In this document: positions 4,239 to 38,129 of the stretch, one piece after another
Layout of the letters: each line of letters opens with the position of its first letter
How positions within the stretch are numbered: the stretch's first letter is position 1
Assembly (NCBI GenBank): GCA_037042915.1
Contig: CM073194.1
Location: 2,852,001-2,916,000, forward strand
Length of the DNA: 64,000 bases
Source of the DNA: Auricularia sp. M13
Lineage: Eukaryota; Basidiomycota; Agaricomycetes; Auriculariales; Auriculariaceae
Direction of reading: 5' to 3'
Position numbers and translations under genes: made by a program
The notes under the pieces: model-generated
Database searches by the model: none
The model's input: the letters and a program-made list of their open reading frames with translations, nothing else
What the model was told of the DNA's origin: nothing

Positions 4239-5314
4239 TCAGTACCCCGGGAAAGTGATGCGCCCGATATTGAGAAGCTCAGTTAGCCGTTCCACTGTCT
4301 CCAACTCGTCTAACGTCCATCCACGCAGCGCGAGGTCCGTCAGACATGTAAATGGTTTGACAGCAGCGACAATATCGTCGACATCAAGCCGGGCGTTGTC
4401 GGCGGTGTCCAGAAGCGGGGAAATGAGATTGAGTTCCAGCGCATAGACAGAGGGAAATTCGGCTTGGACCCATGATGTACGCAAAAAGCCCGAGGTCGTC
4501 ACTGCCGCCAATTCAACCGGGGAAGAAAATTGCAGGGTAAGTGAACCGATTCCGGTGCGCGAAAGTTGCTCTAATTCGACTATGGGGAAAAGTGCGGCGG
4601 GGTCGGAGAACGATGTAATCAGGCTACTGGAATACGTTGTCGCCCAGCATTCTCGGTCCATGTATATGGTGGGATAGAGGGCGATGGCGCAAGGCAGGTA
4701 CGCAAACAACGCAACATCCGAGCCACGAGGAAACCACCGTTGGAAGTCATTCAGCAGCTGCTCCGGCGGCGGTCCGCCGCCATATATCCCGATGACGCGC
4801 AAGGTCTTCCTGTGTCTGCGCACGGCGTCATCGAGGATGGAGGAACCCAGCCAATCAGACGGCACGTGGAGCACGCGAAGCCTGAACGTGCTGCGCGCAA
4901 CCTGCTCGATGATGCGGCCGAAAAACGGAACCCAATCTGGTGTCGCGATCGCCCTGATGCGCAGGTCCGATAGACGGTGTAGTTGCGTGAGAGCCGCACA
5001 GAGACCGCGCGTCTGCGAGCGGCTGTGCGCGGTGGACGCGAAGTTGAGGTCTACGTAGTCCACCAGCAAAAATCGGACAAGGGCCGCTTTGCGCGCCACG
5101 GTGCTCAGCGTGCGCGTGCAGGCTATCATTCTGCCGTCGTCCGACACCTTGCCGTAGACGCAAAGAGCAACAGCGCCGTAGAGTACGGGCTCGCAAATGG
5201 CTGTCCAGGCTGAAGCCGTTTGGCAAAGCGCGGCCAGGGTTGGATTATCGCAACACAGGGCCACAAGTCGCCATATTTCGGGAGGACATTTCTGACAAGC
5301 AATTAAATCAGCAT
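4239..5314 (-). pseudogene. F-box-type protein copy that lost its start codon
   Basis: An open frame of about 350 codons, closely related to the intact gene at 12889-14022. It keeps the F-box-like start (CPPEIWRLVALCCDNPTLAAL), ASAWTAICEPVLYGAVAL and the downstream body. The ancestral ATG survives at 5312-5314 (ATGCTGATT, identical to the intact copy). It is followed at once by an in-frame TAA and is out of frame with the F-box because the interval is 5 nt longer. No other in-frame ATG precedes the F-box; the first internal one is in GRMIACTR. The frame also lacks about nine central codons and ends early (RITFPGY). The promoter side is duplicated too: the segment with GTGAAAATAAACTCCGC is found at both loci. 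Rescue by an unseen 5' exon is possible but not visible. Confidence 0.75.
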
Positions 5315-5699
5315 CGCGTATTCACGTCGTTCATGCGCGCTTACTTTAACCATTTTTACTACACGGCGGGAGAGCGAAGGCAACCGTGGCAGCGGAGTTT
5401 ATTTTCACGGCGCCATCTTCTGCTCCTCCTACTGCCTCGGTTTATGACTGCAACTCGGATTTTTTTGGCGCATGTCTCTCTCAAATACGACACTGTATGC
5501 AGTTATCAGCTGTTTCGCTCAAATATCCACTTGGAGAACTCTTCGAAGCTTCCTTGCTGATAGTTGCTCTTTCTGGTCTGCACGCTCGATAATTACCCCG
5601 TTGTAAGTCCACTGATCAATATTATTTCAAGTGAACATTATTGTCTTGATTATTGACCTTTACATCTACCGTGGAGAAGAACCGGGACGGCATCGGCGT

Positions 5700-9194: not shown

Positions 9195-9240
9195 CAGCTC
9201 GTCTGCCATCGGCACTTCAGCTCGTCTGCCATCGGCACTT
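9195..9240 (+). repeat. Perfect 23-bp tandem duplication
   Basis: Two exact adjacent copies of a 23-bp unit (9195-9217 and 9218-9240) beginning CAGCTCGTCTGCCATCG. The surrounding 8.7-9.8 kb has no recognisable gene. Confidence 0.9.
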
Positions 9241-9790: not shown

Positions 9791-10746
9791 TCACCGCCGG
9801 GCTTGGACGCGCCTGGAGGCCTGTGACTCCCCGGGCTCGTCATCGCCATCGCCATCGCGTCTGCGCTTCTTCCCCTGCAGGACCTTGCACACTGCATCGC
9901 CGTCAACGGAGCTCTATGCTATGACCGACTGGACTCACTCTCGTCAAAACGCGCCTCCAGGGCCCTGCGCGCGGCACGCTCCGCGTCGAGCTCCTTGCGG
10001 CCCGCCTCGAGCTCCTCGCGCAGCTCCTTGCGGCCCGCCTCGAACTCCTCACGCAGCCTCCTACAGTCCGCGCGCACCCCCGCGAGCTCCTCACGAAGCT
10101 GACCCCGCGCTTCCTCGGCCTGCTGCATCCGCTCTGCCAGCTCGTCGAGCGTCCTCCGAGTGTGCCCGTCGCCAGCCTCGGTGGGGCACCGAAGATATGG
10201 CGGCAAATGTCTGGACGATAGACTACTGCTGTCGAAATTGCGAGGGGGCTGGGCACCCCAGACCATCTGGTCCTCCGCGTCGACCCGGGCATCGAAATCG
10301 TCGTCGGGCGCGGGCTCCTCCTGGCCGAAGCCTAGCGGTCCCCTGCGCATTCAAGTTCGCTGTGAGACGGTCTACTGCTGTGCTATTGCGCTACGCGATA
10401 CGTACTGTGTTTCGTCGTCGCCGCGGCCGCTCTGCTGCGAGTCCGGAACCAGGACTCTGATATCGTCTTTACTAGGAGCGCTCGCGGATTTCGGCAGCGG
10501 CGCGGCCTCGTCGTCGGATCTGTATTCCTCCATGGCCTGCGTCAAGCCGGTCTTGACTTCTGCAAATGAATCCTGTTTGCTGAGCTTCGCGGCGGCGGCG
10601 GCTGGCTTCGCGGTCGAGGCGAGATTAGATTCATTGGCGGCGTTGTCACGGCCCTTGGACATTTCGAGTCGGTCAAGCTCCTGCATCGCCTGTGTTTGTC
10701 CAGTTACGAGGTCTTCATATGTGTCCTTCCTGGTGAGCGGCGCCAT
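9791..10746 (-). CDS. Small coiled-coil protein with basic C-terminal exon
   Basis: Three exons (10746-10406, 10342-9939, 9891-9791) join in phase to 281 aa; the introns are 63 and 47 nt. The N-terminus holds two copies of a short motif (DTYEDLVTGQTQAMQE and DSFAEVKTGLTQAMEE). The middle is acidic, residues of about 165-250 form a strong coiled coil (REELAGVRADCRRLREEFE and following heptads), and the last exon is short and basic (VLQGKKRRRDGDGDDE ... ASRRVQARR). A coiled coil, then a GTGAG intron, then a KRRR tail is also the layout of the genes at 25224 and 26764. A nuclear role is inferred from the basic cluster. No known family recognised. Ending unspliced at DESESSRS (9919) is the alternative. 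Confidence 0.72.
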
Positions 10747-11071
10747 TGCGGTAGAACGTGATGGCTCGGTCGCGGTGGTTCTCGGTCATGCACCACCGGC
10801 AGCAGCAGCGTTCGCGATAGCTGGCAGAGATCCCTTCTCCGTTCCCTTGCCAGAGAATAGCCTCTATGAGAAGGGAGAGGAGAGGGATGGAGAACGGCAG
10901 CGTGGTTGTTTTTTGGACTCCGGCGGGCCTTGAGCGCGTCGGAGGTTTCACTTCGACTTGGACCGCCCTGGGACCGTACGTCGGAAGGCTTCGCCTGTGT
11001 CGTCCCAGGCCGCCATCTCATTGCATTACACCAGCTGGACAAAGACAGGGATAACGACAACAGTGCACCCA

Positions 11072-12271
11072 TTATTCGTCAGACTCCTCATCCTCGTCCT
11101 CGTCCTCGTCCTCGTCCTCGGCCTCGTCCTCGTCTTCCTCATCGCTGCCAGGTACATCTGGGTCGAACCAGCTGTCGTCTTCGTCCGATTTGCATCTGAT
11201 AGACTCGTCCGGGAAGACGACACGCTCCAATGCCTTGCAGCCCGCGGCTAATACGGCGCTGGCCAAAGCGATACGCTGCGAATCTTCCAGTGCTAGCTCG
11301 CTCTCGGCGCCTTCCGCCTTGGATATATTGAGATTGCGCAAGTTCTGCATGGGCGACAGGCTCCTAGCCAGCACATCTGGATCAGGCAGCGTGGAGACTG
11401 TGAGATCGAGAAAATCGAGAAACGCGACGTAGGGGAAGGCGCGCGCGAGCTCGCGGACGGCGTCGTACGCGGGCACTCCATGGCGGCGCAGATCGACGGC
11501 GATAATGAAGAACCCGTAATACCACGGGATGGGACGCGGGATGCGGATGAACTGGTCCGCGTGCAGGCTCTCCGCGATGGCGCTGACGTTGGGCGTGTCG
11601 TGGAGGGCCAGCCAGTCGAACGGCGCGTCGTACACGTTGTTGCTGAACCCGAAGACGGCGCACCGCTCGTCCAGCAGGCCCGTGTGCAAGGGCCACGTCC
11701 AGTCCTCGGACTTCCACACTGTTTGGATGCCCAGCGTGCGCAGCGTGCCGCTTTGGGCGCGGAAAATCCGTGCAATGTCGTCGGGGTAGTTGTTATAAGC
11801 GTGCGGGATGTGCAGGTTCTGTAGTTTTACGACGGGGTTTTCGCTGCCCAGGACACCGGCCAGCCACTCGGACACCAGCGCAGCATGGTCGCCGTTCCGT
11901 ACGCGAAGATCGACCAGGTTGATCAGTCGGGGGAGCAAGTCGACAAAAAGGCTCTTCGCGAGAGATGCCGTGGCTCGCAATACGCCCTCTTCTACGTTCC
12001 GCCCTCGCGAGAAGTGTACTAGAAGAGTGCGCACGAGCGACGCCTTGTAGTTCGACATCACAAGGGTGACCATGCAGGACACGGCGCGGTCAACTTGTTT
12101 CTGGTTCAAGCCAATGAAGACACCGATGCGCTCGTAAAGGACGGGCTCGCATGCGACACACCACAGGCGATCCAACAGGCAGAGCTGCGGCAGGGCGCTC
12201 GGATGGCTGGCGATGGCGACCCGATGCCGAAGCTCTGGTGGAAGCCAAGGTTTAGAGTCTCTTTGACTCAT
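11072..12271 (-). CDS. F-box-like protein with acidic tail
   Basis: A single exon of 399 aa. The start is the ATG at 12269-12271 (MSQRDSKPWLPPELRHRV). The first 60 residues follow an F-box pattern (LPPEL ... ALPQLCLLDRLWCVACEPVLY), followed by a leucine-rich helical body resembling the LRR-like region of fungal F-box proteins, for example LINLVDLRVRNGDHAALV. The C-terminus is a long Asp/Glu run (PGSDEEDEDEAEDEDED). F-box proteins bind Skp1 and present substrates to an SCF ubiquitin ligase; the target is unknown. It is divergent from the gene at 12889, and a fragment of a sister copy lies at 5.7-5.9 kb. Confidence 0.8.
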   Translation of the reverse strand: MSQRDSKPWLPPELRHRVAIASHPSALPQLCLLDRLWCVACEPVLYERIGVFIGLNQKQVDRAVSCMVTLVMSNYKASLVRTLLVHFSRGRNVEEGVLRATASLAKSLFVDLLPRLINLVDLRVRNGDHAALVSEWLAGVLGSENPVVKLQNLHIPHAYNNYPDDIARIFRAQSGTLRTLGIQTVWKSEDWTWPLHTGLLDERCAVFGFSNNVYDAPFDWLALHDTPNVSAIAESLHADQFIRIPRPIPWYYGFFIIAVDLRRHGVPAYDAVRELARAFPYVAFLDFLDLTVSTLPDPDVLARSLSPMQNLRNLNISKAEGAESELALEDSQRIALASAVLAAGCKALERVVFPDESIRCKSDEDDSWFDPDVPGSDEEDEDEAEDEDEDEDEDEESDE

Positions 12272-12888
12272 GAATACGTCCACGGCTGAGCTGGAGATCA
12301 AAGATCAGCAGAGCAGCGATTGGCAACTTCAAGTCTTCAACGGACAGAGTTGCAGCCAGTACTGGCTATATCGCCAAGCAAACACGGCTTGGATACGCTT
12401 GCGCGGTTATGTGTCGCTTCCGAAGTAAGCATCGTCGCTTGTTCCGTTTTCTCTGATAAGCCCGTTACAGACTGATGCCGTTCCTGTTCGTTTTTCTGTC
12501 CGTGTAGACGGTACTAAGCATCGGGATATATATTTTAATGATTAGAAGTGTGGTGTGCTGGTGTATCACGTACATTCGTGGTAATTTCTTTTGAGTCTGC
12601 AAATTAAAAAGTGCAATTATCGTCAAGACTGCAAAACAAAAGGCTTGGAATAGTCTATCAGTGTAGACCCGAACGACCGAAGTAGTCACTGCACGGGGGA
12701 TTGTACTGGAGGAGACACTTGTGCCCAAAAACTGTGCTTTTCAGCGGACAAAGCAGGGACAAAGAGTTAGCAGGAGGAGGCGCCGTGAAAATAAACTCCG
12801 CTGCCTTTGTTGTCTTCGCTCTCCCAACCAGCCGTGAAAAATGGCCACAGTAAGCGCGCGCGCGACTTGCGAGCTACGCGAGTAGACA
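12272..12888. other. Divergent intergenic region between two F-box genes
   Basis: Shared upstream region of the genes at 12271 (minus) and 12889 (plus). The right 120 bp are homologous to the upstream side of the dead copy at 4239-5314 in inverted orientation, so the promoter was duplicated with the gene. Confidence 0.6.
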
Positions 12889-14022
12889 ATGCTGATTACT
12901 TGGCAGAGTTTTCCTCCTGAACTATGGCGACTTGTAGCCCTGGATTGCGATAAACCGTCGCTGGCGGCGTTGTCCCTGACAGCTACAGCGTGGGCAGCCA
13001 TTTGCGAGCCCGTGCTCTACGACGCTATTGCTCTGCGCGTCTACGGAAAAATATCGCAGGACGGGAAAATGATGGCGTGTACGCGCACACTGAGCACTGT
13101 GCCGCGCAAGGCGGCCCTCGTACGATCTTTGCTAGTGGCCTACGTAGACCTCGTGTCATCCGCGGACACCCGCTCGCAGACCCGTGCGCTCTGTACGGCT
13201 CTCTCGAAACTACACCGCCTGCTGGACCTGCGCATTAGGACAGACGACGCCTGGACGCGTGACTGGATTTCGTTTTTCACCGGCATCGTCGAGCAGCTTG
13301 CGAGCAGCAAGTTCGGGCTTCAGGTGCTCCATGTGCCTTCCAAATGGATCGGTCTCCCCAATCTAGATGATGCCGTGTATAGACACAGGAAGAGCTTGCG
13401 TGCCATCGGGATATGTGGCGGTGGGCATCTGCCAGAGCAGTTGCTAAACAACTTCGAACGGTTATTTGGCCAGGGATCGGGAATTGCGCTGTTCGCTTAT
13501 GAGAACACCGCCTATAATGCACCATACGACGTAATCGACCTCTATCCCTTCATCTACCTGGGCCGAACGGGCTGGACGACAACGTACTCCAGTAACCTGA
13601 CTGCGTCGTTCTCAGACCCCGTACCGCTACCAGCAAAACCCTGGCAGCTCTCGCGTACCGGAATCCATGCGCTTGCCCTGCACTTTTCTTACCGGGTTCA
13701 GCTGGCGGCCGTGACAACCCTAGGCTTTCTGCAAACGCTAAGGGTCGAATCCGAATTCCCTTCTGTTCGCGCCCTGGAACTCAATCTCATGTGTCCGATC
13801 CTGGTTAGCGCCGACGATGCCACACTTGATGTCAATGACATCGTCGCTGCTGTCAAGCCATTTACACGTCTTAAAGAGCTCTCGCTGGGAGGCTGGACGT
13901 TTGAGGGATTGGGGAAGAGGCAACGGCTCGCTATGCTTCTCAATCTCGAGCGCATCACGTTCCCCGACGGCTCCACGATAAATCAGGCTGGAGACTGGAT
14001 GGGATCCCTGTCGCGACCATAG
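12889..14022 (+). CDS. F-box-like protein
   Basis: An intronless frame of 377 aa. Residues 7-50 form the F-box-like region (FPPELWRLVALDCDKPSLAA, then ATAWAAICEPVLYDAI), followed by a leucine-rich body (LHRLLDLRIR, LQVLHVP, IHALALHF, VRALELNL, LKELSLGGW) with spacing like degenerate LRRs. It is the intact member of a pair with 4239-5314, of the same general type as the gene at 11072-12271. Role inferred: substrate adaptor of an SCF ubiquitin ligase. The start is supported because the copy at 4.2 kb preserves the same first nine bases although it is broken just after them. Confidence 0.82.
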   Translation: MLITWQSFPPELWRLVALDCDKPSLAALSLTATAWAAICEPVLYDAIALRVYGKISQDGKMMACTRTLSTVPRKAALVRSLLVAYVDLVSSADTRSQTRALCTALSKLHRLLDLRIRTDDAWTRDWISFFTGIVEQLASSKFGLQVLHVPSKWIGLPNLDDAVYRHRKSLRAIGICGGGHLPEQLLNNFERLFGQGSGIALFAYENTAYNAPYDVIDLYPFIYLGRTGWTTTYSSNLTASFSDPVPLPAKPWQLSRTGIHALALHFSYRVQLAAVTTLGFLQTLRVESEFPSVRALELNLMCPILVSADDATLDVNDIVAAVKPFTRLKELSLGGWTFEGLGKRQRLAMLLNLERITFPDGSTINQAGDWMGSLSRP

Positions 14023-14402
14023 CGGGAGTACGAGAGGGGAACTTTGCAGCACTTTCGCCTCATCTCTCTACCACTAGGTCTCACAGGCCCGTGGCCATCT
14101 TCGCGCACAGATACTTTTGACTCAAAAATATGCCCAATATGATACCTCACGCTCTATCTAGTACACAATCCAAAGCTCGCGTCTCGTCTCAAGCTGCGAA
14201 TTTCCCGGTTCTGTGTCATTCTATTGATCTCTAATGCCTACTCCCGACTATTTCCAGAGTGCAAGCCGGATCCAGCTCGCCCTTCCAACGTGTTCCGTCG
14301 GTCTGTAAAATTGATTATCTTCTGTCGGCGATGGTTAAATACTGAAAACTCACTTTGCTCAACCGTCTCCTCGATCTCGCTGCACAGCGCCTCGAGTTCC
14401 CT

Positions 14403-14624
14403 CTAATTTTCCTTCTCCCGCTCCCGTCCAACTTCTTTGCGCTCTGCAAGAGCATCGGACCGTGCGATCGCAGCGGTCAGCTGCTCGCGCACCCACGCGT
14501 ACTGTTCGCTCGCCTTCGCGAGCTTTTCGCGCCATTCAGCTTCGGTCTCCTCCACGTCGCGCGGCGCCGCTTTCTCGGGCTCCCCGTCGGCGTGAGTGTT
14601 TTGGGAGGCGTTGGGTTCTGCCAT
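14403..14624 (-). CDS. Short coiled-coil protein, probably truncated by a nonsense codon
   Basis: From the ATG at 14622-14624 (MAEPNASQNTHADGEPEK) the frame runs 73 codons into a coiled coil (EAEWREKLAKASEQYAWV) and stops at TAG 14403-14405. The same frame continues past the TAG as clean coiled coil (RELEALCSEIEETVEQ) to a GTGAGT donor at 14353 and, after a possible intron, a short basic tail (NRRNTLEGRAGSG). This suggests a longer ancestral protein built like the other small coiled-coil genes here, cut by one stop codon. It sits head-to-tail with the gene at 15221-15538 and has the same promoter layout. Confidence 0.5.
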   Translation of the reverse strand: MAEPNASQNTHADGEPEKAAPRDVEETEAEWREKLAKASEQYAWVREQLTAAIARSDALAERKEVGREREKEN

Positions 14625-14710
14625 CTGGATCCTGCGAGTTGTTGGAGCTGCGCCGAGAGGGATGGGATGGGACGATATGATTATGGGGAACTCGTCCGGT
14701 CGCAGGCCGC

Positions 14711-14784
14711 CTTTTGTACCCGCTGCAATCCTGTGGCACAAAAGGGATGAGGATGCAACTACGACCAGGAAGGGTTTGTGCCAC
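14711..14784 (-). promoter_or_regulatory. Inverted GTGGCACAAA pair upstream of a TATA-like box
   Basis: GTGGCACAAA at 14733-14742 and its inverse TTTGTGCCAC at 14775-14784 flank a 32-bp spacer. A TATA-like TACAAAAG (minus strand, about 14711-14718) lies just downstream toward the ATG at 14624. The same arrangement precedes the next gene (15619-15680). Confidence 0.6.
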
Positions 14785-15220
14785 CCTAGTGTATTCCCAT
14801 GTGATGCCGAGCGACACCTGGCACGACAATGATGTGCCACTTCATCGAAGAACTTATTCTGGAGCCACCCTCTGCTGGGCAACACCTGAGACTATTATCG
14901 ATATTGGTGCGCCTTGACAAACGAGAGATGACTGGGCTTCTAGACTAGGTACGTTGAAGTTTAACCAGGGCAACAAGATCAATTCTCACGTTCTCGTGTA
15001 TCTGCATTTCCCAAACAATACAGACACTATTCGCGAACGCATTTACGACCCAGTGATCTATCCATGGCTTTATTATGTCGTTCGTTTGGGAATACAACGC
15101 TTGAGTCCATATCTCGATTCTGCGGTCAGTCTGCCAATCGAAACCCTCCGATTCGCCGACCCCCCGTCCTCTCTGGTGCCTACGCGTCACCACGGCGCCG
15201 CTCATACTCAGCCCGAGCAT

Positions 15221-15538
15221 CTAGTATGCCCTGGAGAGCTGCTCAATAGCTGCATATAAGTCAAGTTGGAAGAATGCAGGCCGCAGGCACTCACCATCCT
15301 GCAGCGTCTGCTCGAGAGCAAGTCGCACCTGCCGTTCATCCGCAGCGTCCGCGAGCACGGCGCCCAACTGCTCGCGCAGGCTGGCAATCTCCGCCTGTGC
15401 TGTGGCAAGCTCCTCACGCGCTGTGGCAAGCTCCTCGCGAAGCGCTGCATTCTCCGACTCTGCACTGTGTGCGACTCTGGCAGTAGTAGTGGGATCGCCG
15501 GCGCTGTCGCGGTTCTGGTTTTGGTTGTGGGCGACCAT
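15221..15538 (-). CDS. Small coiled-coil protein
   Basis: Two exons (15538-15295 and 15249-15221) with a 45-nt GTGAGT...GCAG intron in phase 1 encode 90 aa. After a short polar N-terminus (MVAHNQNQNRDSAGDP) nearly everything is one coiled coil (ENAALREELATAREELATAQ, then IASLREQLGAVLADAADE). The intron falls straight after LEQTLQDG, at the position used in the genes at 25224 and 26764 (LEEG and LAEG). The last exon adds only AIEQLSRAY and lacks the basic cluster. Function unknown. Confidence 0.62.
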   Translation of the reverse strand: MVAHNQNQNRDSAGDPTTTARVAHSAESENAALREELATAREELATAQAEIASLREQLGAVLADAADERQVRLALEQTLQDGECLRPAFFQLDLYAAIEQLSRAY

Positions 15539-15618
15539 CGCGTTCGATTCGGAATTGCTGACGCTGAGAACGGGATGGGATGTGATTAGTGATTAATTCT
15601 CGTTGCATCGAAGACGGT

Positions 15619-15680
15619 CTTTATAAGCCCCGCAAATGGCGGGTGGCACAAACACGATCGTCGTCGGCGCCTTGTGCCAC
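15619..15680 (-). promoter_or_regulatory. TATA box with inverted GTGGCACAA pair
   Basis: On the minus strand TATAAAG (about 15619-15625) lies about 80 bases before the ATG at 15538. Upstream of it GTGGCACAAA (15643-15652) and TTGTGCCAC (15672-15680) form an inverted pair with a 19-bp spacer. The sequence and distance from TATA match those at 14711-14784, which points to a common DNA-binding dimer (inference). Confidence 0.62.
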
Positions 15681-15767
15681 CCCGCGCAGTTTGAGGACAA
15701 GGTATGCAGAACAAGTGACCTCGAAGGCGCTGCATGGACAAAGACACGGGGAGAGATAACGGAGAAC

Positions 15768-16426
15768 TCACTTTGACTGGGACTGCGCGTTCTCCTCATG
15801 ATCATCGTACGACTGGGACTGCGATTGCGTTTGCGATTGCGTTTGCGATTGAGAAGTGCAGTACATCTGCATGAGGGACTCCATTTGGGAGTGCATCGTC
15901 CATTCCAAGTCCGGTGGCTGGCCGCAGCCGCGCGCACTGCACAACGGACGTCAAGATGCTTTGTTCTTGGGACGCGAGACAAGGGGACGTACCACATCGA
16001 CATGAAACTCATGGCAGTCGACACCGTCGAGGTCGACGTTGTCGATTGCGTCCGAGTCTGACCCCACCCACTGCCCGCGCGGAATGTGGTTTCGTCGGCG
16101 TCGGGGATGGTCACCATCGTGCTCGACCGAGCGAGCTGTGTCGGCGGCGGCGGGGTGAAAGACCACGACTCGGACATCGCAGAGTCGACGGACGATTGCG
16201 ACTGCGACCCGAAAACTTCGGCGGTGCTTGGACCGTGAATGGCAGTGTCGACGTCCGGGTCTGGGTTGCCAGTGCCCACTGGCAGGATCCCGCGCGGAAT
16301 CGATGTGGCATCTCGGGAAGGCGCGGGCGGCTGCGACTGCAGGATCTCGGCGTAGTCGGAGGGCGACAACGACTGAGAGAGGCTGGCGTCGGCGTCGGCG
16401 CGGTGGGTGATGTGGAAGTGGGCCAT
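15768..16426 (-). CDS. Ser/Gln-rich low-complexity protein
   Basis: Exon 1 (16426-15993) and exon 2 (15936 onward) are joined by a 56-nt intron (GTACGT to GTGCAG, phase 2). The protein starts MAHFHITHRADADASLSQSL, is rich in Ser, Thr and Pro, and ends in a Gln/Ser repeat (QSQTQSQTQSQSQS) with the stop TGA at 15768-15770. A GTGAGT donor overlaps that stop; splicing it to GCAG at 15730 would give 235 aa ending at 15621 instead. I prefer the earlier stop because the extra exon would overlap the promoter motifs of the next gene. No domain recognised. It is divergent from the gene at 16954 across a motif array. Confidence 0.5.
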
Positions 16427-16514
16427 ACTAGTAGCGTCGAGTTGATAGGAACAGGAAACCGAGCGTCGACTTGGTAGCGGACTGATGATGGGGCAGAACA
16501 GCGCGTGCGGAGAG

Positions 16515-16808
16515 GTGGTTATATACTGATGGGCCCCCGCGGCGCACCACGTCTGGCTTCAGGGTGGTGCACCACGACTGTATTCGGAATGAGGGCGCAG
16601 CATGATTTGATTCGGAAGACGCACCACGACCGGATTAGGAAGGCGCACCACGTTTCCAAGGAGGAAGGAGGACGCACCACGCCTCGGCACCGAATGCGAG
16701 TCGTCGCTTCCTCAGAAGCTGATCCGGGGTACGGTGGGACAATACCGCCGCCCACGGGGGGAGGCGTGGTGGAGGGCGGAAGCGTGGTGCGGCGGGCGGG
16801 TACATAAC
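16515..16808. promoter_or_regulatory. Divergent promoter with GCACCACG array
   Basis: Five forward copies of GCACCACG (16542, 16569, 16621, 16645, 16674) and inverted copies at 16765-16770 (partial) and 16783-16790 lie between two outward-facing TATA boxes, TATATAA (minus strand, about 16515-16524) and TACATAA (plus strand, about 16798-16808). The copy at 16564-16576 is palindromic (GGTGGTGCACCACG). This is a compact shared control region for the genes at 16426 (minus) and 16954 (plus). Confidence 0.7.
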
Positions 16809-16953
16809 CGCCCACCGCGCCAGCTTCATGACCGCCCACCGCCCTCTTCGACAGGAGCATCCGCCGCCTTCACCAGCTGCGTCACCGCCCTCGACTTCTC
16901 TCGTCGTCTCCGACCAGCGCCCCGAACGCGAAGATCCCTCGCCCCGTGAAGCT

Positions 16954-17820
16954 ATGGCCCACCGTAGGCGCAGCATCCTCCCCGTCACCCGCATGGGCAA
17001 CAAAATCGTCGTACCAGCCGCGACGCCGCCGGTGGCGACGACCGCGCCGCCGGTTACGATCGCCACGCCGTCGACGGAAACGACGACCGCGCCTCCGCCC
17101 GCCACCAACGCCGCCGTGTCAGACTCCACCACCGCCGCGGCGTCCACGACTCTAGACACCTCGACGACGACGACCGCCCGCGCTCCCCGGGCCCCGCGCC
17201 GCCCAGACCCGAAGCACAGTATGCGCCGGCGCAGCGCCGTGCCGCTGCTGCTGCGTCTTGGGCTCGCGATGACTGCCGCGGCGGCCGAGTCCTCGTCGAC
17301 TGGTGAGAGCGCGTCGAGCACGAAGTCTGGAGCGGAGGAGGTGACGTTGGTAGAAGGGAAGTGTGGTGGGGAGATCGGGCGCAACGACGCAGAGAACGAC
17401 TCGGAGGGCGTTTCTGGCGTCCAGCGCGCATGCGACATCGATATGCGGTCACCGGCCAAGGGCGATGACGCTGCGGAGGTCACTCCACCACTTGAAGTCG
17501 CCTGCGACGATGCGAAGCCGGCCGGCGGAGACGACGCGAAACCGACCGAGTACGATACGAAGCCGATCGACAGCAACGACGAAAAGCCAAGCTGGACGAG
17601 CGCCCTCGTCACCGACGACGAGGCGGCGCGCTGGACGCGTCTCATCATAGGCGTCGCAGCGTGCGACGAGGTCCGCGTCGCTGTCGAGAGCGGCGACTCG
17701 GAGGACGTTAAGGGCGTGATAGAACGCGGCGCCACTGGTGGGACGCGCAAGCGGCGCTGCCCGTGGCAGCCGTTCGCGCTGCCGCGGCCGCGCCGTGTGC
17801 GTGAGCGCGATGCTGGCTGA
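16954..17820 (+). CDS. Thr/Ala-rich low-complexity protein with RSILPV start motif
   Basis: An unspliced frame of 288 aa from ATG 16954 (MAHRRRSILPVTRMGNKIV). The N-terminal motif RxRSxLPx recurs at the start of the genes at 25224 (MAHRNRSVLPVDSPGSG) and 26764 (MSRRIRSVLPLDGTSSG). Next is a Thr/Ala/Pro-rich stretch, then repeats of DDAKP type (ACDDAKPAGGDDAKPTEYD), then a basic end (GTRKRRCPWQP ... PRPRRVRERDAG). An upstream in-frame ATG at 16828 lies about 28 bases from the TATA box and so is probably not used. No coiled coil or known domain was seen. Distant membership of the local small-gene set is inferred from the N-terminal motif and basic tail. Confidence 0.52.
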   Translation: MAHRRRSILPVTRMGNKIVVPAATPPVATTAPPVTIATPSTETTTAPPPATNAAVSDSTTAAASTTLDTSTTTTARAPRAPRRPDPKHSMRRRSAVPLLLRLGLAMTAAAAESSSTGESASSTKSGAEEVTLVEGKCGGEIGRNDAENDSEGVSGVQRACDIDMRSPAKGDDAAEVTPPLEVACDDAKPAGGDDAKPTEYDTKPIDSNDEKPSWTSALVTDDEAARWTRLIIGVAACDEVRVAVESGDSEDVKGVIERGATGGTRKRRCPWQPFALPRPRRVRERDAG

Positions 17821-19057
17821 CATTGGGAAGTCGAAGGAGGCCGCGCAGGAAGGATCTCAGGCTGGGTGTTGGCCGCGACGGTGATATCATATGCAGTAGA
17901 TGTGGAATTCCAGGATATGCGATACGGAGTCCATTTTGTTAGAGCTGTAGAGCATTAGAGAAATCAATTGTAAATGCGACCGCCTTCAATGCCAGTGCGA
18001 CAGTCACATACCTTTTGTTAATTCTGTCGATTATGAACTGCCAGAAGGAACTTGTGACTTGGAAAATGCTGATAGTAGCGAAGGAAATCGGGCATGAGCA
18101 TCATGATGCTTTACCGAGTCGCCGCGTTTGTGTACATAGGGTCCCCACAGAGCAGGGTCTATAGATAATGAGCATAAAGAACGGTCCTTGATGGACGTTC
18201 TGCCAGTGAAGGATGAGGGTGCGAGTGCGTGTTGAGCAACGTCTGAGGCAGCGAAGCAGGTTGGAGCACCGTGACGAAGAAACTGGAATACGAAGACGAT
18301 TCTGTGGTATGCAGTACTGGCGCTGCTCGCAATGATTCAGAATGATCACCTTTCCCGGGGATGCCACTGAGATTGAGTACAGCAGTAACGGATTCACAGC
18401 AGCCACCAGTGGCAGTTGAGTGCCGTATAGATTGCGCCCACGGTCGAGTCGCATATCGTCGAAGCTGTTGCTGTGCGCAATGCAGTTACGGAGGTGCTAG
18501 TTCACGCCGTCCCCGACGTGCCAGCATACTGTAATAGAGTGATGATTGTGTTCCGGATTTGGACAACGACCAGATAGGAGAAACCCTTCCAACCCTCAAA
18601 CTGCATCAGAACCCAGCCTTCGAGCCTTCCAGGTAAGCAATGCAAGACGAACAAGCACAAGCACAAGAACAAGCACAAGCCATAGATTGTTGTGCAATGC
18701 ACATTGGAGCCAGTGCGAGACGCTGCCAGATGATAGATCTCTGATACGCCTGGAGTCAACCGAAGGTCAATAATGGGGGTGATAGAGCGACTTGCAAGAC
18801 TTCCAAAGCGGGCGGGATGGATAAGGCAGCGCCGCGCAGTTGGGTCAGTCAACAGTTAGAGGCGGTGATGTTTGGCCTGGCGCACAGGGGACAGACGGAG
18901 TACGAGGACAATGGTGCGCGAAATCCAGAGTTACTTGATTTGTTCACCGTGTGAACAAAAAGACAATTGTGTTTTGAGTTTGAGAAGGGCAAGAGTCGGG
19001 AGTCGGGGCGGGACCGGGACCAGCCGGACCAGCGCTTGGAACTTGTCTCTGGCCACC
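17821..19057. other. Intergenic, no gene recognised
   Basis: Contains a short hexanucleotide-type run (CAAGCACAAGCACAAGAACA, about 18650-18685) and the MAP-kinase upstream region. No supported coding frame. Confidence 0.5.
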
Positions 19058-23062
<4,005 letters not shown>

Positions 23063-23555
23063 CATACCCCGTTTTCTCGCGTGATCCCCGGCGCGCGCTC
23101 TGCTGTACAGCGCCCCCCCTGTACCAAGCGCGCGCGCCTCTGTCTCTCTGAGTCTGATGCGCCCCCGCTCTCTCTCTCTGATGTATATCGTTCTCCGGCT
23201 CTGGCTCTGGCTTTGAATGCGTTTGCGGTGTAGTATGTATGACGATGGGTTCTGGCTAGCTTCGCTTTTTCTCCTTGAGTTTTATTTCGGGATGCTTCGG
23301 GTGATCTTGGGGTCCTGGTTGAGACGATGCTCCGAGAGGGTCTCTGAATTGCGGACTCGGCAAGTGAGTGCTACAGGTGATGCGTGCCTAGACTCTCGAC
23401 GAAGCAAAGTGCTAGCCCGATTCGTAGCTACGGTCCGGAAACTGGCGCAAGAGGATCGAAAGCCCCTATCAAAGTATTTTGCCGTACTTAATTTCGAGCG
23501 CTTCCTCTCTTTTTACCCTTTGGCAAAGCGCTCCAGTGTTCTTCACCTCACCGAT
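23063..23555. other. MAP-kinase 3' flank and intergenic region
   Basis: CT-rich simple sequence around 23140-23190, otherwise no coding signal trusted. Confidence 0.4.
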
Positions 23556-24638
23556 ATGGATGCGCCTCGAGCAGTGGCTGAAGACGCGAGGGAATCTGCC
23601 AGTGTCTCGCCGGAGTCGCACGTACCGCCCGGCGTCAAGACCTCTGGCTTGACCCCACATTCGCACGCCCTTCCTTTTGGCCGAGTCGAGGCGTCGTCTG
23701 CGCTGCGTCCACTTTCCACACATCAGTTGTCTGCCCCGCAGCTTGAGGAGTGGGCAAGCGGTTCCGGGACGTGGACTCAGCTCCCGCTGTACGAGCCGGG
23801 GAGGATGTGGGGGAGCACGCCTCGGACGTCTCTCAGCTGCCGCGGCGACGTCGTGCCAGCCCGCCTGCGGCCGTCTGCACGCCTTGTGGTACCGCCGCCT
23901 GAGTGCGTCGCGCTTTTCTTTGAAACGCACAGTTAAACGTCGCTGACGAGCGGCCTTCACTGTATTCATCTCTCAGCGACGACTGCGACCACACTAATAC
24001 GCAGTGTAAGGACGGCGATCCGGATGCAGCGGCGCCTCCCGTAGACCCGCGTTTGCTGAAAGCTCTTCGCTTTCTGTACAGCCTGGAGAATCCGCAGGAA
24101 TGTGATCTGGATAGGCGAGTGTGCTAAGTGTTTCCTCGGGCTTTTCCTCGTTTTGTCAGGGGGCTTATACGACATATGTAGGTGCTTCAAGATCATCACT
24201 GGCGAAGAAGACATCGATAAGCCTCAGCAAGACGACTCTGCGGGTACCAATGAAGGTGCTGGTGATGCAACTCCCGACACTCAGCCTGAGGTTGTCGCAT
24301 CGCCTGTCCCGGTCCGCGGCATCAAATGGAAGCGCGCAGGTGATGATGCCGCGGACCAAGCGCCGGATGCGGATGGGGACAACGCGGAGGCGCAGCACCG
24401 CGATGGGTCCAAGATCTTGGTCCAACCTCTGCCAGTGGAAGTTGAGCCTGAGGTCTTCGCATTGCCGCCCCGCGGCATCAAAAGGAAGCGCGATGAGGAC
24501 GGCACTGCCACGGACCAAGCACCGGATATGGTCGCGGACAATGCGGAGGCGGAGCGGACAACGCGCCGCCTGCGCCGCGACGCATCTATGATCCTGGTCG
24601 GCGCCGCGATGACCTACGCTGCGCTGGCGTGTATCTGA
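23556..24638 (+). CDS. Hypothetical protein with duplicated KRKR segment (tentative model)
   Basis: Tentative exons 23556-23888, 24005-24114 and 24182-24638 keep one frame and give 299 aa. The second intron (24115-24181) would use a GC donor (AG/GCGAGT) and a TAG acceptor. The last exon carries two related segments, RGIKWKRAGDDAADQAPDAD and RGIKRKRDEDGTATDQAPDM, each followed by NAEA and a SKILV or SMILV motif, so an internal duplication of about 50 residues is clear. The basic clusters look like nuclear localisation signals, and the C-terminus is hydrophobic (VGAAMTYAALACI). No family recognised. The last exon is the best-supported part; the first exon is the weakest. Confidence 0.42.
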
Positions 24639-25064
24639 TGCGTGTATCGAGCGGTATCATTTTTTTTATACACAATCTATCTCCACAATCCAGCTTTTAC
24701 TCTCAGGCTCAGGTTGCGAGGCGGATACACAGTGAGACGTTCTTAATATTGGAAACGGATGAATGAAGAGGTCATAGCCGTCATAGCTCGTTTGACACCG
24801 CCCTCGAGGACGCGATGGGAAGGTGATTCAGGTTTGAGTAGCATCTGGCCTCGCTCGCAGAATCTGACTCAGAATGATCTGTTGAAGGATATTTCATCTT
24901 TGCCATTCCGCAGAGACCCAACGCAATCTCAGCATTAGAGACGCTCGTTGAGGCGTAAATGTCGGTGAGACAAGGATGAAACGGCACCGACCGACTCGGT
25001 CAAAGCAGCCATTCCTCACAGCCATAGCTCACGCGCATGGAGACGGTACACTGCTCCAAACGGA

Positions 25065-25130
25065 GCGTGGTTGTCATTATTCAAGCCTGGAAACGCGGAG
25101 GGACAAAGCGGCGGGGAGGCGCATATAAAT
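25065..25130 (+). promoter_or_regulatory. GCGTGGTTGT element and TATA box of the 25.2-kb gene
   Basis: GCGTGGTTGT (25065-25074), then GGAGGGACAAAGCGGCGGGG, then TATAAAT (25124-25130), about 100 bases before the ATG. All three are conserved at 26609-26674. Confidence 0.6.
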
Positions 25131-25223
25131 GGCCAGCGCGCTGTGGGTGCAGCCCTTCCTCCGTATCGTTCTTCACCTTCAGCACCCAGCACCGCGTCCC
25201 TCAACAGCTCACTCTGCAAGGTT

Positions 25224-26039
25224 ATGGCGCATAGAAATCGCAGCGTTCTGCCTGTTGACAGCCCAGGCTCTGGCCGCACCACACCTCGCCGGTCTGGAAG
25301 CAGCCAGGTAGCCTTTCAGCCCCCTGCGGGGCAGCTGATACGGACAGAGTCTACGAGAACGGCTGCAACTGAGACGCTTTCGGGCGACGCGGAGACCGAG
25401 GCTAATGGCGACAAGACGCAGGTCGAGGCAACGCAGGACGGCGACACGCTCCACAGTGGGCAGCCGCTCTCGGCGATGTCGTCGATGTCGAGTTAGTAAG
25501 TGGTATTTACAAGCTTTCCATGGAAATAGCGTACTCACCAGACTTTCTTGTAGTATTGGCGGCGCTCAACCAAGGGACGACGATGAATGGGAGCAAAAGG
25601 TTGCACCGATCCGTCGTATGGAATCGCTCCTGGGCCCTGATTGGGACAAGCCAGCGCCAGAGACACAAACGACCCGCGACATATATTGCGATGACCTGCG
25701 CGCCGAGGTCAGCGAGCTGCTCGCCGAAAATGACAATCTGCGCACCATGAATGTCGATCTCCACGCTCGGCTGGAGCGAACTCTCGAGGGCGAAGCGTTG
25801 CTACGCCATCAGCTCGCTAAGGAGCGCGCGTTGCGTATTGAGGGCGAAGCCAAGCTCGAAGAAGGTGAGCATTTGGTTCGAATCATGCCGGAGGTGTTGC
25901 GGGATCTAATCCGTTCTTAGTTGAGAAAGCCTTCAGAGAAGTCCACCAGACGTTCAATAGACTGAAGCGCCGACGCAGTGACGTGGATAATGGCCTTGGT
26001 GTAGTTGGGGAGAGGGAGAAGCGCACGAGACACGATTGA
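25224..26039 (+). CDS. Coiled-coil protein with basic C-terminal exon, tandem copy 1
   Basis: Three exons (25224-25495, 25554-25864, 25921-26039) join in phase to 233 aa. The order is an RSVLPVD motif at the start, a Ser/Thr-rich acidic region, IGGAQPRDDDEWEQKVAPI, SLLGPDWDKP, then DIYCDDLRAEVSELLAENDN opening a coiled coil that ends LRHQLAKERALRIEGEAKL. The intron after EEG leads to a short last exon (VEKAFREVHQTFNRLKRRRS ... REKRTRHD) with two basic clusters resembling a bipartite nuclear signal. It is a tandem paralogue of 26764-27890, and both share upstream sequence for about 200 bp. A nuclear, DNA-associated or scaffolding role is an inference; no known domain was recognised. Confidence 0.75.
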
Positions 26040-26608
26040 CTCTGACGGAGAGCAATGGACTCCGGACTTTAGCAGTGTGATTTGAAAAGGACAGTTTCTC
26101 TAGTGTACGATTCGTATAGCTCTTAGCAAACAGTTCAATTCAGCTCCTGTTAGCGGCAGTTTCCAGAGTGTAACAATTTGTTCGTGCTTGGAGCTTGGAG
26201 GACGGTACGAAAAAATCAGGACCGATACCTATAGGCATTCCAACTTCATAAGTTTATGCCGACCATATCTGAAGGAAATTGTTGCGATCCGTATAGTGCC
26301 TGTAGGCAGCGCTTAATGAGGGGGAAAGCAGCATACTTCGGCATGTGCGCTACTCTTTGCGTTACTTTTAGAGCTGCATCAGCAGCCTGAGGACTTTTCC
26401 ACCGATGCGGCAGCTCTGGAAGTCCACCATCAGCTTAATAATGAGCTAGAGGTCGTCTTACGGTGTCTGCTATGCGTATTAAGGCTCAAATGTCGCTGAG
26501 ACATGGATGAACGGCACAGCCCGCTATGGTCAAAGTAGCTGAACGAACACTGCCACTCCCAGAGCCATAGCTCGCGCGCACGGCGACGGTCCACTGGGTC
26601 AAATGGAG
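26040..26608. other. Spacer between tandem paralogues
   Basis: No gene seen. The right part (about 26490-26608) is homologous to 24960-25064 upstream of the first copy. Confidence 0.5.
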
Positions 26609-26674
26609 CGTGGTAGTCCCCGTCCTTGCGCTGGCAACGCCGAGGGACAAAGCGGCGGGACGGCGTTTATAAAT
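26609..26674 (+). promoter_or_regulatory. GCGTGGTAGT element and TATA box of the 26.8-kb gene
   Basis: GCGTGGTAGT (26609-26618), GAGGGACAAAGCGGCGGGA and TTTATAAAT (26667-26674) align with the promoter at 25065-25130. Confidence 0.6.
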
Positions 26675-26763
26675 GGCCGCTGCGCCGTCGCTGCAGCCCT
26701 CGTCCATCGTCCCCCTCTCGGCACCCGACACCATTTCCTTCACGCAGCTCAAGTCGTCACACT

Positions 26764-27890
26764 ATGTCCCGGCGCATTCGCAGCGTTCTTCCTCTCGACG
26801 GCACTAGCTCTGGCCTCTCCACACCTCGCCATTATAGAAGCAGCCAGGCTTTCCACCCACTGGCGGGGCTAGAACGGGCACAGTCTGCAAGAGCGGTGGC
26901 CACTGAGACGGATGATGGCGACACGGAGACGGGGGTCGATGTTGACGAGACGCAAGTGGAGGCAACGCCAGACGCCGAGACGCTCCGGAGCGGGCAGCAG
27001 CTCTCGGCGATGTCCTCTATGTCCAATTCCTAGTAAGCAATGCCTCCAAGCCCTCCGCGGCGTACTCACCATGCGTTCTCGCAGCATTGGTGGCGCGCAG
27101 CCAAGGGACGACGAGGAGTGGGCGCAGCTGGTTGCACCACTCGATCCCATGGAATCGCTCCTGGGCCCCGATTGGAACAAGTACGTGCCGAGCCAAGAGG
27201 ACTTGCAGACTTTTGAGTGAGCTTTGGCATCCTCATGGTTTGAGGCACCGAAACTGATTACCTTTCGCGAAGCCGCTACTACGGAATCGAGGAGGAAATC
27301 AAAAGGCTGCAGGAAGAGGACGCTGCAGAAAAGCTCAAGAACACGACGCCTCAGCCCAGGAGCCCGCAGTACAGCCCGCAATACAGGCCGACGAGCCCGA
27401 AGTACGCGCCAATGAGCCCGGAGTACAACGCCGGCTACGGGCACTGCGACGCGGACGCTTCTGGCGCGGGGCGTACGGATCGCGATCTATACTGCGATGA
27501 CATGCGCGCAGAGATCGACGCGCTGCGTGCAGAGCTAGGCCAACTGCGCGCCGGATATAGCGAGCTTCGCGCAGAAAACGATAGCCTGCGCGCCGCGAAC
27601 GTCGACCTGAGCGATTCGAGGGAGCAATCACTCGAAGCCGAAGCACTGCTACGCATGCAGCTCGACCGCGAGGAGACATTGCGTCTCGAAGCTGACGAGA
27701 AGCTTGCTGAAGGCGAGTACCTGGTTCAACTGCCCGACTGATAAACGGAGAGGTCTAATCCAATCCCTTCACAGTTGAAAGAGCCTTCGAGGAAGTACAT
27801 CATATGTTCAAGAGGCAAAAACGCAGGCGCCAGGGCGAAGATGACCACAGCGAAGTTCAGGAGAGGACAAAGCGCGCGAGACGCGATTGA
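26764..27890 (+). CDS. Coiled-coil protein with CTD-like repeats and GC-AG intron, tandem copy 2
   Basis: Exons 26764-27032, 27085-27216, 27273-27712 and 27775-27890 join in phase to 318 aa. It matches the gene at 25224 segment by segment: RSVLPLD start, YIGGAQPRDDEEWAQLVAPL, SLLGPDW, RDLYCDDMRAEIDALRAELG coiled coil, KLAEG before the last intron, and VERAFEEVHHMFKRQKRRRQ with a final KRARRD. It has an extra stretch of about 60 residues (RYYGIEEEIKRLQEED, then repeated SPxY units such as SPQYSPQYRPTSPKYAPMS). The last intron (27713-27774) has a GC donor (GAAG/GCGAGT), where the paralogue has GT; the paralogous tail proves the junction. Function unknown; nuclear localisation inferred. Confidence 0.78.
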
Positions 27891-35692: not shown

Positions 35693-38129
35693 CTATTCTG
35701 GTTCGGAGGTGGCGGGAATCTGTGCCAGCGAGGCGGCAGAGTTAGAGTCAGGCTCGGTTGCCGCATCGACATGGATGGTGACATGACCTGGCATCGCAGA
35801 AGGTTGAAGGTCCCTCTTTCCATCGTTTACCGGAGCTACACTCGGGATGCGGGCTGCCGGCGCAGACGGAGTGACGCCTACCTCTCCATCCTGAATTGAA
35901 GCTACTGGTGGTGTAATGGGCGGTGTCGCGCTAGAAGAAGTACAGACAGCAACGTTGCCAAATGTAGACGAAATCTCGAGGAGCGTCAGAAGGGTACGAT
36001 GCTGATGCAGTACCATCGCTGCGTAAACGCGAACAAGAGAGGGGTCCAGATCCACTACCATTCTAGCCAGTCTCGCAGGAAAGATGATGCCAGGATAATC
36101 ACGCAGACGGGAAGGATCGCATGCTGTATCCGCCGTGTAGTACGAGATCATAGTGTTGACCATCATTTTTGCACAGTCGGCATTTGACCTCCGGGGAGGA
36201 CGCGCAGAAATCTGATCAGGGTGTGCTTTGAGCAACTGTAAAGCAAGTCCACACATGGCGGGCAGAATATGCTTGTGAAACTCCGCAGCACCGGCGCATA
36301 GCAGTTCAAAGCCCTCGGAAAAGGCTGCGGTGGGCTGAGCGATGGAGTTTTCACTCTCACCGGCAGGGATCGACCGTTGTACAATGGCCTGTATTTGGAG
36401 ACTCGCGAGCCGCAGTAAACCAAAGGCCATCTCTACAGGATCGGTGAGCAGGAAGCGACACACAGAAGGGATCTCACACCTTGGCTGAGACAAATGGATT
36501 GGTCACGATATAATGCGCGAACGGTTTTCATCGCTTCGCAAGTCCATAGAGAGTTGACTCCAACTTCAGGAGCAATCCGCAAAATCATCTCGACAGCAGT
36601 GTTGGAATCGATTGTAGTGTGTAAAGAACAGCGATATAACGCCGCCTGTGCTCTGATATACCAGTTTGTCTTGTTGTCAAGATGGATCGGTTCAGGGAAG
36701 GCTCGCGCGACGCACTCCAGATCGAAAGATGCAGGGAAATGGTCATCTTGAACGGATGTGCTCTGCAGCCAACGAGCCCAGGCACATTGCCAGATGGAGC
36801 TGCTTAGATGCCGCTCATCAATGTTCGCAGTGACCCATGCAAGGGTTTCATAGGCCGATCTAGGGCCCCAGTGAATGCAGTCACGTCTCTTCATCCAGTT
36901 TATATCGAAGGTAATCCATGAGTCCGCGGGCCGCAGCATGAGCGAGTATCGGTGGGTATACGCCAGGAGGGTATGGCAATGTTTCTCCATCAAATATTCC
37001 AGAATCGGCTGAAAAGCACGAAGGACAATCCAGGCCTGTGCCGATTTAAACGCGCACTGAGGCTCAGCAAAGGCCTTGTGCATCAGATGTATCTCAATCT
37101 CGGGACTGAGCTCGCCGCGTAATCGGAGGATGGTATTTGTGTATTGAATAAGTGGGAGAAGTGTCGTCGCCATGTAGAAGGCCAGAGTTACTGCCACAAC
37201 CATTGTCACACAGATAGCGACGGTGAAGCTGATGCGCCAGAGAAGCTCCACAACGCCGGTGAGGAACAGTGCCAGGGAAACCTGAAGGAGAATGGGCACG
37301 GAATTGACAATACTGCCAACCTTCCAGTAGCTCAGCCCCTGGTACCGGATGAAACGGACGCCAAGTGCAGTCTCGGGGGATTGACCGATGTCCCGCTCGA
37401 ATTCGCGCAGCCACTGCTTGCATAGGATGCCAACGAGGGCGGCGGACAGACTGAGGGTGAGTGACAAGAACCAAAAGACATTAATATGAGCGATTGCGGC
37501 ATCGGATAGACGAGCGGCATTTGGTCGAACTGGAAGTATGGTTTGGTTGAGACTTTGAGCCAGCAGATGAACCACGTCGCGCAAAAGTTCGGCCGAGGTA
37601 TCAGCAGGATCATCAAGCAACCACTGGAAGGATTCAACAGCGAATGCGGTCACAACAGCAGAGAAGATACCGGCCTATAGATGTTCTTATTCCGTCATAC
37701 ACTTGCGAATTAAGCCAGTGGACTTACGAAGACGAGAAGCGTGTCGATCTGCTCGCGATACGCCTGGCACAGATCGGCGTCGTGTTTTTCGACCGCCTTG
37801 AGACACTGCTGCCATCCTGAATCCTTACTTCCGTCGGGCATGTGATGAAGTTTGTTTTCGTCGAAATCTGGCATGGGATATTGGGGAAGATCCTTGATGA
37901 AATCAGGAACGGTCAAGGGACGATGGTAGCCTCACCTTGAAAAAGCGCTGAAACGCAGCTTCTTCGTACTCGGCATTGCTGGAGCAGTCCTGGGATGCCA
38001 TCAGTGTCCGTAAACATGGTTTTAACTTTTACAGGAGCAGACCTGATTTTGCGTATCGGGCTGATCTCGAGCAGCAAGTGCAGCAGGGCGAGGATACGGA
38101 GATTCGGGCGGAGCAGCGGGCAAAGGCAT
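35693..38129 (-). CDS. DUF6535 membrane protein, copy 1
   Basis: Five exons (38129-38043, 37989-37936, 37892-37728, 37674-36480, 36432-35693) join in phase to 746 aa. Landmarks are EYEEAAFQRFFK, DSGWQQCLKAVEKHDADLCQ, YREQIDTLLVFAGIFSAVVT (first membrane segment), FAVESFQWLLDDPADTSAEL, a second segment in NVFWFLSLTLSLSAALVGIL, CKQWLREFERDIGQSPETAL, and two more membrane segments around VPILLQVSLALFLTGVVELL and FTVAICVTMVVAVTLAFYMA. A long soluble C-terminal domain follows. This is the DUF6535 family, expanded in Agaricomycetes, of unknown function. The 5' end (ATG 38129) is the least certain point. It is the inverted-duplicate partner of 51161-53569. Confidence 0.82.

Follow-up and report, generated by a model that had tools for sequence, protein, structure and literature searches.

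The window analysed here is a 64,000-nucleotide stretch of the genome of the basidiomycete Auricularia sp. M13 (bases 2852001–2916000 on contig 2; the genome comprises 52.1 Mb in 14 contigs). It holds a loose cluster of small genes that a first-pass annotation had described as a local family sharing an acidic front, a coiled coil, an intron and a last exon with a KRRR cluster. We name these genes by coordinate, A (25224), B (26764), C (9791), D (14403), E (15221) and F (16954), and add gene G (16426–15772, minus strand), which is named in this analysis and was absent from the first-pass annotation. All exon structures are gene models built from sequence. The proposed local family is partly supported. 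A and B are certain members, G with E is a likely one and C a plausible one, and the membership of D and F is unproven.

Genes A and B

A and B arose by tandem duplication and evolve under purifying selection. Gene A has three exons on the plus strand (25224–25495, 25554–25864 and 25921–26039) that encode 233 amino acids, with introns in phases 2 and 1. Gene B has four exons on the same strand (26764–27032, 27085–27216, 27273–27712 and 27775–27890) that encode 318 amino acids, with phases 2, 2 and 1. The two proteins are 62% identical, and their first and last introns lie at equivalent places, with one extra intron in B between them. The last intron of B (27713–27774) is of the GC–AG type; its GC donor at 27713 takes the place of the GT of A, at the same position and with a similar intron start. 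A TATA box lies 100 base pairs (bp) before the ATG of A (25124–25129, plus strand) and 96 bp before that of B. Repeats spaced 1.53–1.54 kb span the promoter, TATA box and exons of both genes, and the two promoters align with a score of 108, compared with 10.3 for the null.

Both genes encode a mildly acidic front that leads, by way of a short possible helix (DEW..MESL), into a predicted long helix; a phase-1 intron then separates the helix from a basic exon with the KRRR cluster. In A, the front carries a net charge of −6 over 130 residues, the long helix −6 and the basic tail +4. AlphaFold, run on the single sequences of A and C without an alignment, predicts the coil of A as one 63-residue helix, with predicted local distance difference test (pLDDT) values of 89–98 by block; it is preceded by a poorly scored helix over DDEW..MESL (blocks 59–74).

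We calculated the ratio of nonsynonymous to synonymous substitution (dN/dS) between A and B over 230 codons by the Nei–Gojobori method. The ratio is 0.35 overall, with a dS of 0.74, and amounts to 0.44 in exon 1, 0.34 in the core, 0.29 in the coil and 0.28 in the tail exon. Both frames, including the tail exon, are therefore under protein-level constraint, and this ratio is the strongest support for the predicted translation of the basic exon in the claimed frame. The drop towards the tail arises because dS rises; dN itself is 0.24 in exon 1, 0.21 in the core, 0.29 in the coil and 0.30 in the tail. For these two genes, the layout given in the first-pass annotation is thus borne out by gene models and dN/dS. 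In terms of codon usage, the claimed frame scores better than both other same-strand frames in every A/B exon tested. Since an opposite-strand frame scores higher in the three exons of A and in the tail exon of B, the codon-usage score leaves the frame undecided.

A protein search of the genome with A gave eight matches at E ≤ 1, all within A and B. With B, 13 matches were found at E ≤ 10, eight of them in A or B and the best of the five outside at E 0.035; neither search found a match outside A/B at E ≤ 0.03. The best outside match covers coil and tail of B (33% identity, E 0.035) and corresponds to an intronless open frame of 169 amino acids with basic residues (L034:1501–1830; C1:7172994–7173323). 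Nothing of the A/B front was found in the frames inspected there, and the frame may be a generic coil or a remote relative. Immediately upstream of A lies a short frame (24102–24638) with two internal repeats (RGIKWKRAGDD.. and RGIKRKRDED..) and no Pfam match at E ≤ 0.01.

Gene G and its relation to E and D

The likely best additional relative of A and B is gene G, as far as sequence motifs can tell. Its exon 1 (16426–15993, minus strand) ends in AMSxMS before a phase-2 intron, and exon 2 (15936–15772) continues with QPPDLEW-MESL. The junction reads ..TAMSFMSMC/ARGCGQPPDLEWTMHSQMESLMQ.. in G and LSAMSSMSSY/IGGAQPRDDDEWEQKVAPIRRMESLLG in A, the slash marking the phase-2 intron in both. The motif common to the two genes, AMSxMS before the intron followed by QPxD..EW..MESL, is matched by B in the alignment, and no such junction was seen in C or F. 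A DNA pattern of A-M-S-x-M-S-x plus a phase-2 donor has two matches in 52 Mb, one in A and one in G at a distance of 9.5 kb, and none in the reversed control; B is one residue longer at this junction and does not match. Pairwise similarities were assessed by 26 pair tests with 2000 shuffles each, uncorrected. The score of the B–G front alignment is reached by 17 of the 2000 shuffles. The best genome match of the G–E protein outside the locus lies on C4 (E 1.3).

There are two models for the 3′ end of G, either a short exon of its own or a splice to E. If exon 2 is joined to E (15563–15295), the intron phases become 2, 2 and 1, as in B. Gene E (minus strand) has a coil exon at 15538–15295, or 15563–15295 if spliced from G, followed by a phase-1 GTGAGT intron and a last exon at 15238–15180. 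Of its two possible acceptors, one gives ALQGILDARAEYERRRGDA and the other AIEQLSRAY. The first-pass annotation had given E a coil and the shared intron position. An intron after the coil can indeed be modelled, but position 15221 marks where the coil frame stops if it is left unspliced; spliced via one of the two acceptors, the protein ends at 15180 in ..YERRRGDA, with ERRR rather than KRRR. The TATA box of E (15620–15625) lies 87 bp before its ATG.

Gene D (14403–14624, minus strand) is a coil reading frame related to E, with the TATA-like box TACAAAA at −94 (14712–14718). The frame stops at an in-frame TAG (14403–14405), and the one good donor seen, a phase-1 GTGAGT, comes 49 nucleotides after it. 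D is therefore a short coil protein or a relic, and the intron that it was said to share with the other genes is unsupported. An inverted repeat, GTGGCACAA..TTGTGCCAC, closely precedes the TATA box of E (15643–15680), and a second copy stands upstream of the TATA-like box of D (14733–14784). With a gap of 10–38 bases, exact matches to it occur at these two places alone in the genome, and the control has none. The E and D promoters align better than any of 300 shuffles (z 6.2); within the same 21 promoter comparisons, E–C and F–C were each reached by 2/300 shuffles. For larger units around D and E, the alignment is reached by 3/500 shuffles under one scoring scheme and by 1/500 under another; for the coils the figure is 0/2000, a value inflated by coil periodicity. 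D is probably a partial copy of E. We favour E and D as separate genes and G–E as a split or splitting gene; G with E is probably a third copy that has diverged and in which the coil part is served by a separate promoter.

Gene C

Gene C lies on the minus strand (exons 10746–10406, 10342–9939 and 9891–9791) and encodes a long coil and a KKRRR tail. Its modelled phases, 2 and 1, are those of A, the acceptors having been picked to keep the frame open. The gene models thus give phases of 2,1 for A, 2,2,1 for B, 2,1 for C and 2,2,1 for G–E. AlphaFold predicts the coil as a 76-residue helix with pLDDT values of 88–98 over most of its length. It resembles the coil of E (3/2000 shuffles). Among the 990 open reading frames (ORFs) of at least 40 codons in the window, seven carry KRRR within their last 40 residues, and the tails of A, B and C account for three of these. 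From its exon architecture, C is plausible as a fourth copy. No TATA box was seen upstream of it.

In the genome protein search, the front of C finds only itself, and the best match of C elsewhere, at E 0.006, is on C6. Two nearly identical places on C3 and C5 match C at E about 1 and look transposon-borne by eye. We did not count the outside matches on C1 (of B and of F), C6, C3/C5 and C4 as family members, taking them for generic coils or low complexity. Downstream of C, at 9195–9240, there is a perfect two-copy tandem repeat of 23 bp.

Gene F and the divergent promoter

Gene F (16954–17820, plus strand) starts with MAHRRRSILPV, compared with MAHRNRSVLPV in A. The RSILPV start reported in the first-pass annotation is real (A–F 5/2000 shuffles), but the likeness is limited to the first ∼11 residues, and the B–F comparison is reached by 1203/2000 shuffles; the rest of the protein is low-complexity, and no coil was seen in it. 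A start-codon pattern fitted to these starts in A, B and F occurs 16 times in the genome, against seven times in the reversed control; the three genes are among the 16 and lie within 10 kb. The best other genome match of F is on C1 (E 0.09).

Between the divergent genes F and G lies a 527-bp stretch that contains six of the eight CGTGGTGC sites in the window. Five of them form a minus-strand array at 16544–16681, in steps of ∼25 bp with one degenerate step between, as judged by eye. The array ends ∼20 bp before the TATATAA of G. A triple array of this site occurs once in the genome and not in the control.

The CTD-like segment of B

B contains a segment, SPQYSPQYRPTSPKYAPMSPEY (27361–27426, plus strand), that is absent from A and consists of about three YxPxSPx-like units resembling the heptads of the RNA polymerase II C-terminal domain (CTD). 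In a scan of the genome with PF05001, the segment plus its in-frame neighbours scores 24.6 bits (cut-off 20.3). A sequence search of the PDB with B gave three matches (E 0.51–0.94), one of which is an RPB1-CTD peptide.

The presumed RPB1 is a frame of 1272 amino acids on C5, identified by its repeats alone. Short frames elsewhere with CTD-like repeats score 19.6–52.3 bits (four scanned, two above the cut-off). Outside the presumed RPB1, YSPTSPR-type frames were seen at L055:1779–2864, L056, L058–L061, L062:1543–2331 and L063:1816–2667, and they terminate in CxF or SANF. L055 and L056 are 98.7% identical over 4.1 kb, and L058–L061 are over 99% identical over at least 3.5 kb. Because of this near-identity over kilobases, the frames of both groups appear to sit in recent, possibly mobile repeats. 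We rejected CTD-like repeats as a mark of the family, since several other open frames in the genome carry them, two groups of these in near-identical repeats. The segment of B, read from its sequence, is suggestive but no family mark.

Database searches

A Pfam scan of eight proteins or fragments, with G as its unspliced first frame, found no family above cut-off. The searches thus did not place the genes in unrelated known families, an outcome that the first-pass annotation had named as refuting. Membership in the bZIP, Shugoshin or other coil families was rejected by the Pfam cut-offs. We searched a database of 5.8 billion proteins by a method that relies on shared 5-residue words, so that distant relatives can escape; the queries were B and residues 80–140 of A. 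Of the 7992 candidates scored for B, none reached E ≤ 10, and no protein shared three words with the stretch of A. A control gene from the same window, encoding a DUF6535 protein, found 33 homologues, Auricularia and Exidia included; its best matches came from Auricularia subglabra, at 61% identity across 63% of the query, and from Exidia glandulosa, at 45% across 96%. A fold search of the A helix against the PDB gave no match, and literature searches turned up nothing on a layout of coil, intron and KRRR tail. The view that no named family has this layout agrees with these results.

Other features of the window

Two inverted local duplicates, at 4242–5321 (minus strand) and 12886–14019 (plus strand), are 63% identical and F-box-like by eye, with no Pfam match. 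A more distant third copy (26–28%) lies between them at 11075–12304 (minus strand). Similarity runs on into the flanks. Near 19.0–20.4 kb there is a kinase-like gene, which by eye looks like a MAP kinase. Two DUF6535 genes, at 36436–37674 (minus strand) and 51546–52838 (plus strand), are 75% identical in opposite orientation, each with additional, similar frames next to it. The frame at 54475–60717 (plus strand, 2080 codons) belongs to a Gypsy-type retrotransposon; reverse transcriptase, RNase H, integrase and chromodomain score above the Pfam cut-offs, and gag and protease are weak matches only. Rfam at gathering thresholds gave no match within the window.

Family membership and possible function

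The reading that we prefer, with middling confidence, is that this basidiomycete has a family of nuclear, self-associating coiled-coil proteins that is restricted to its lineage and duplicates locally, the nuclear location and function being presumed. Most of the doubt is due to the nuclear function and to C, D and F. Nuclear import would depend on the KRRR and KRxRxD clusters, and once imported the proteins would pair through their coils with themselves or with one another; the acidic front, in B together with the CTD-like stretch, may contact the transcription or chromatin machinery. We infer nuclear dimers or heterodimers, as the first-pass annotation did. The copies diverge in sequence but retain a coil and a basic tail, a pattern that scaffold or adaptor proteins would be expected to show. 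From the gene models, a coil followed by a phase-1 intron and a short basic exon is predicted in A, B, C and E, and not in D.

It is conceivable, if rather doubtful, that only A and B form a family, produced by ordinary tandem duplication, and that C, D, E and F are unrelated and look alike since coils, acidic fronts and basic ends are common. A basic cluster (four of five residues K or R within the last 40) indeed ends 112 of the 990 ORFs. Whole-genome protein searches with A, B, C, G–E and F link A with B and no other pair, and whole-protein homology was found for A and B but not for C, F or G–E. C compares poorly with both genes: its front is no closer than shuffled sequence (A–C 1409/2000, B–C 511/2000), its coil is equalled by 126/2000 shuffles for A and 124/2000 for B, and its tail is only weakly similar (326/2000 and 25/2000, respectively). 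Several further observations weigh against the preferred reading. The A–G front similarity is reached by 286/2000 shuffles, and A and B are both missing, at E ≤ 10, from the results of a genome search with the G–E protein. The splice from G to E requires a 208-nucleotide intron that holds the TATA box and promoter of E. Amino-acid change in the coil and tail of A and B is no slower than in the front (dN 0.29 and 0.30 versus 0.24), and the spliced B protein scores 16.2 bits for PF05001, under the cut-off. By shuffles, heptad periodicity is absent for E (670/2000) and D (1113/2000), marginal for A (189/2000) and B (174/2000), and clear for C alone (0/2000). Also, the junction, start and promoter patterns were composed after the genes had been inspected. 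Set against the restriction to A and B are the junction pattern of A and G, which is unique in the genome, the intron phases reproduced by G–E and C, and the rarity of strict KRRR ends (7/990). C keeps its place in the originally described layout by its end at 9791, its phases of 2,1 and its KRRR tail, but not by its front and coil, which are no better than shuffles.

Fast-evolving chromosome-associated proteins of the kinetochore, cohesion or synaptonemal type, in place of transcription adaptors, are unlikely. A has a weak Shugoshin_N match (E 0.00067, 19.9 bits), and synaptonemal proteins retain their length and coils as their sequence drifts (PMC8598163); a role in chromosome segregation is frequent among essential genes that are taxonomically restricted (PMC5633384). 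However, the Shugoshin_N match lies under the curated cut-off of 30 bits, and a second domain of any such family was not found. Coil matches of this strength are also generic: A and above all C match several coil models, all under cut-off. It is very improbable that the genes are relics or by-products of a duplication-prone, transposon-bearing stretch, devoid of cellular function. D has an in-frame stop, and the window holds other local duplicates and the Gypsy-type element, whereas a dN/dS of 0.35 at a dS of 0.74 between A and B, together with the conserved TATA boxes and promoter elements, argues against decay.

As it stands, this is an orphan gene cluster, and orphan genes are a common class: ∼10–20% of the genes in a typical eukaryote have no homologues outside close relatives (PMC5633384). 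If the extended family is true, it would be a readable case of a family that exon phases and promoter signatures still reveal when little of the protein sequence is left, and G/E may be a gene fission caught in place. The cluster supplies defined genes for testing a nuclear scaffold role. A bolder version, which we consider a long shot, would make the cluster a regulatory module that is complete in itself and belongs to one mushroom lineage. Its nuclear coiled-coil paralogues, one with an RNA polymerase II CTD mimic, would heterodimerise; they would be encoded side by side and controlled through promoter elements found nowhere else in the genome (the GTGGCACAA inverted repeats and the CGTGGTGCG array); and in G/E one gene would be dividing in two, with separate promoters for the activation-type half and the coil half.

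Comparison with known systems

In bZIP proteins, the basic DNA-binding region is immediately N-terminal to the zipper. Like these, the proteins described here are small, combine a coiled coil with a basic cluster and are likely dimeric. In contrast, their basic cluster follows the coil on a separate exon, and there is no bZIP match in Pfam. The N-terminal coiled coil of Shugoshin (PF07558) is weakly matched by a short part of the A coil, but the scores are 19.9 bits in A and 13.8 in B against a cut-off of 30, the match covers 22 model residues, and no further shugoshin match was found. The B-only segment with its roughly three YxPxSPx-like units resembles the CTD repeats of RNA polymerase II (PF05001), from which it differs in that the units are few and degenerate, A has none, and spliced B stays under the cut-off. 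The genes also resemble taxonomically restricted genes and divergent coiled-coil proteins, as portrayed in PMC5633384 and PMC8598163: no close homologue was found for A or B in the searches above, the coil is kept and the sequence drifts. Unlike those orphan genes, the genes in this window form a tandem and local cluster with matching exon phases and with promoter elements that occur nowhere else in the genome.

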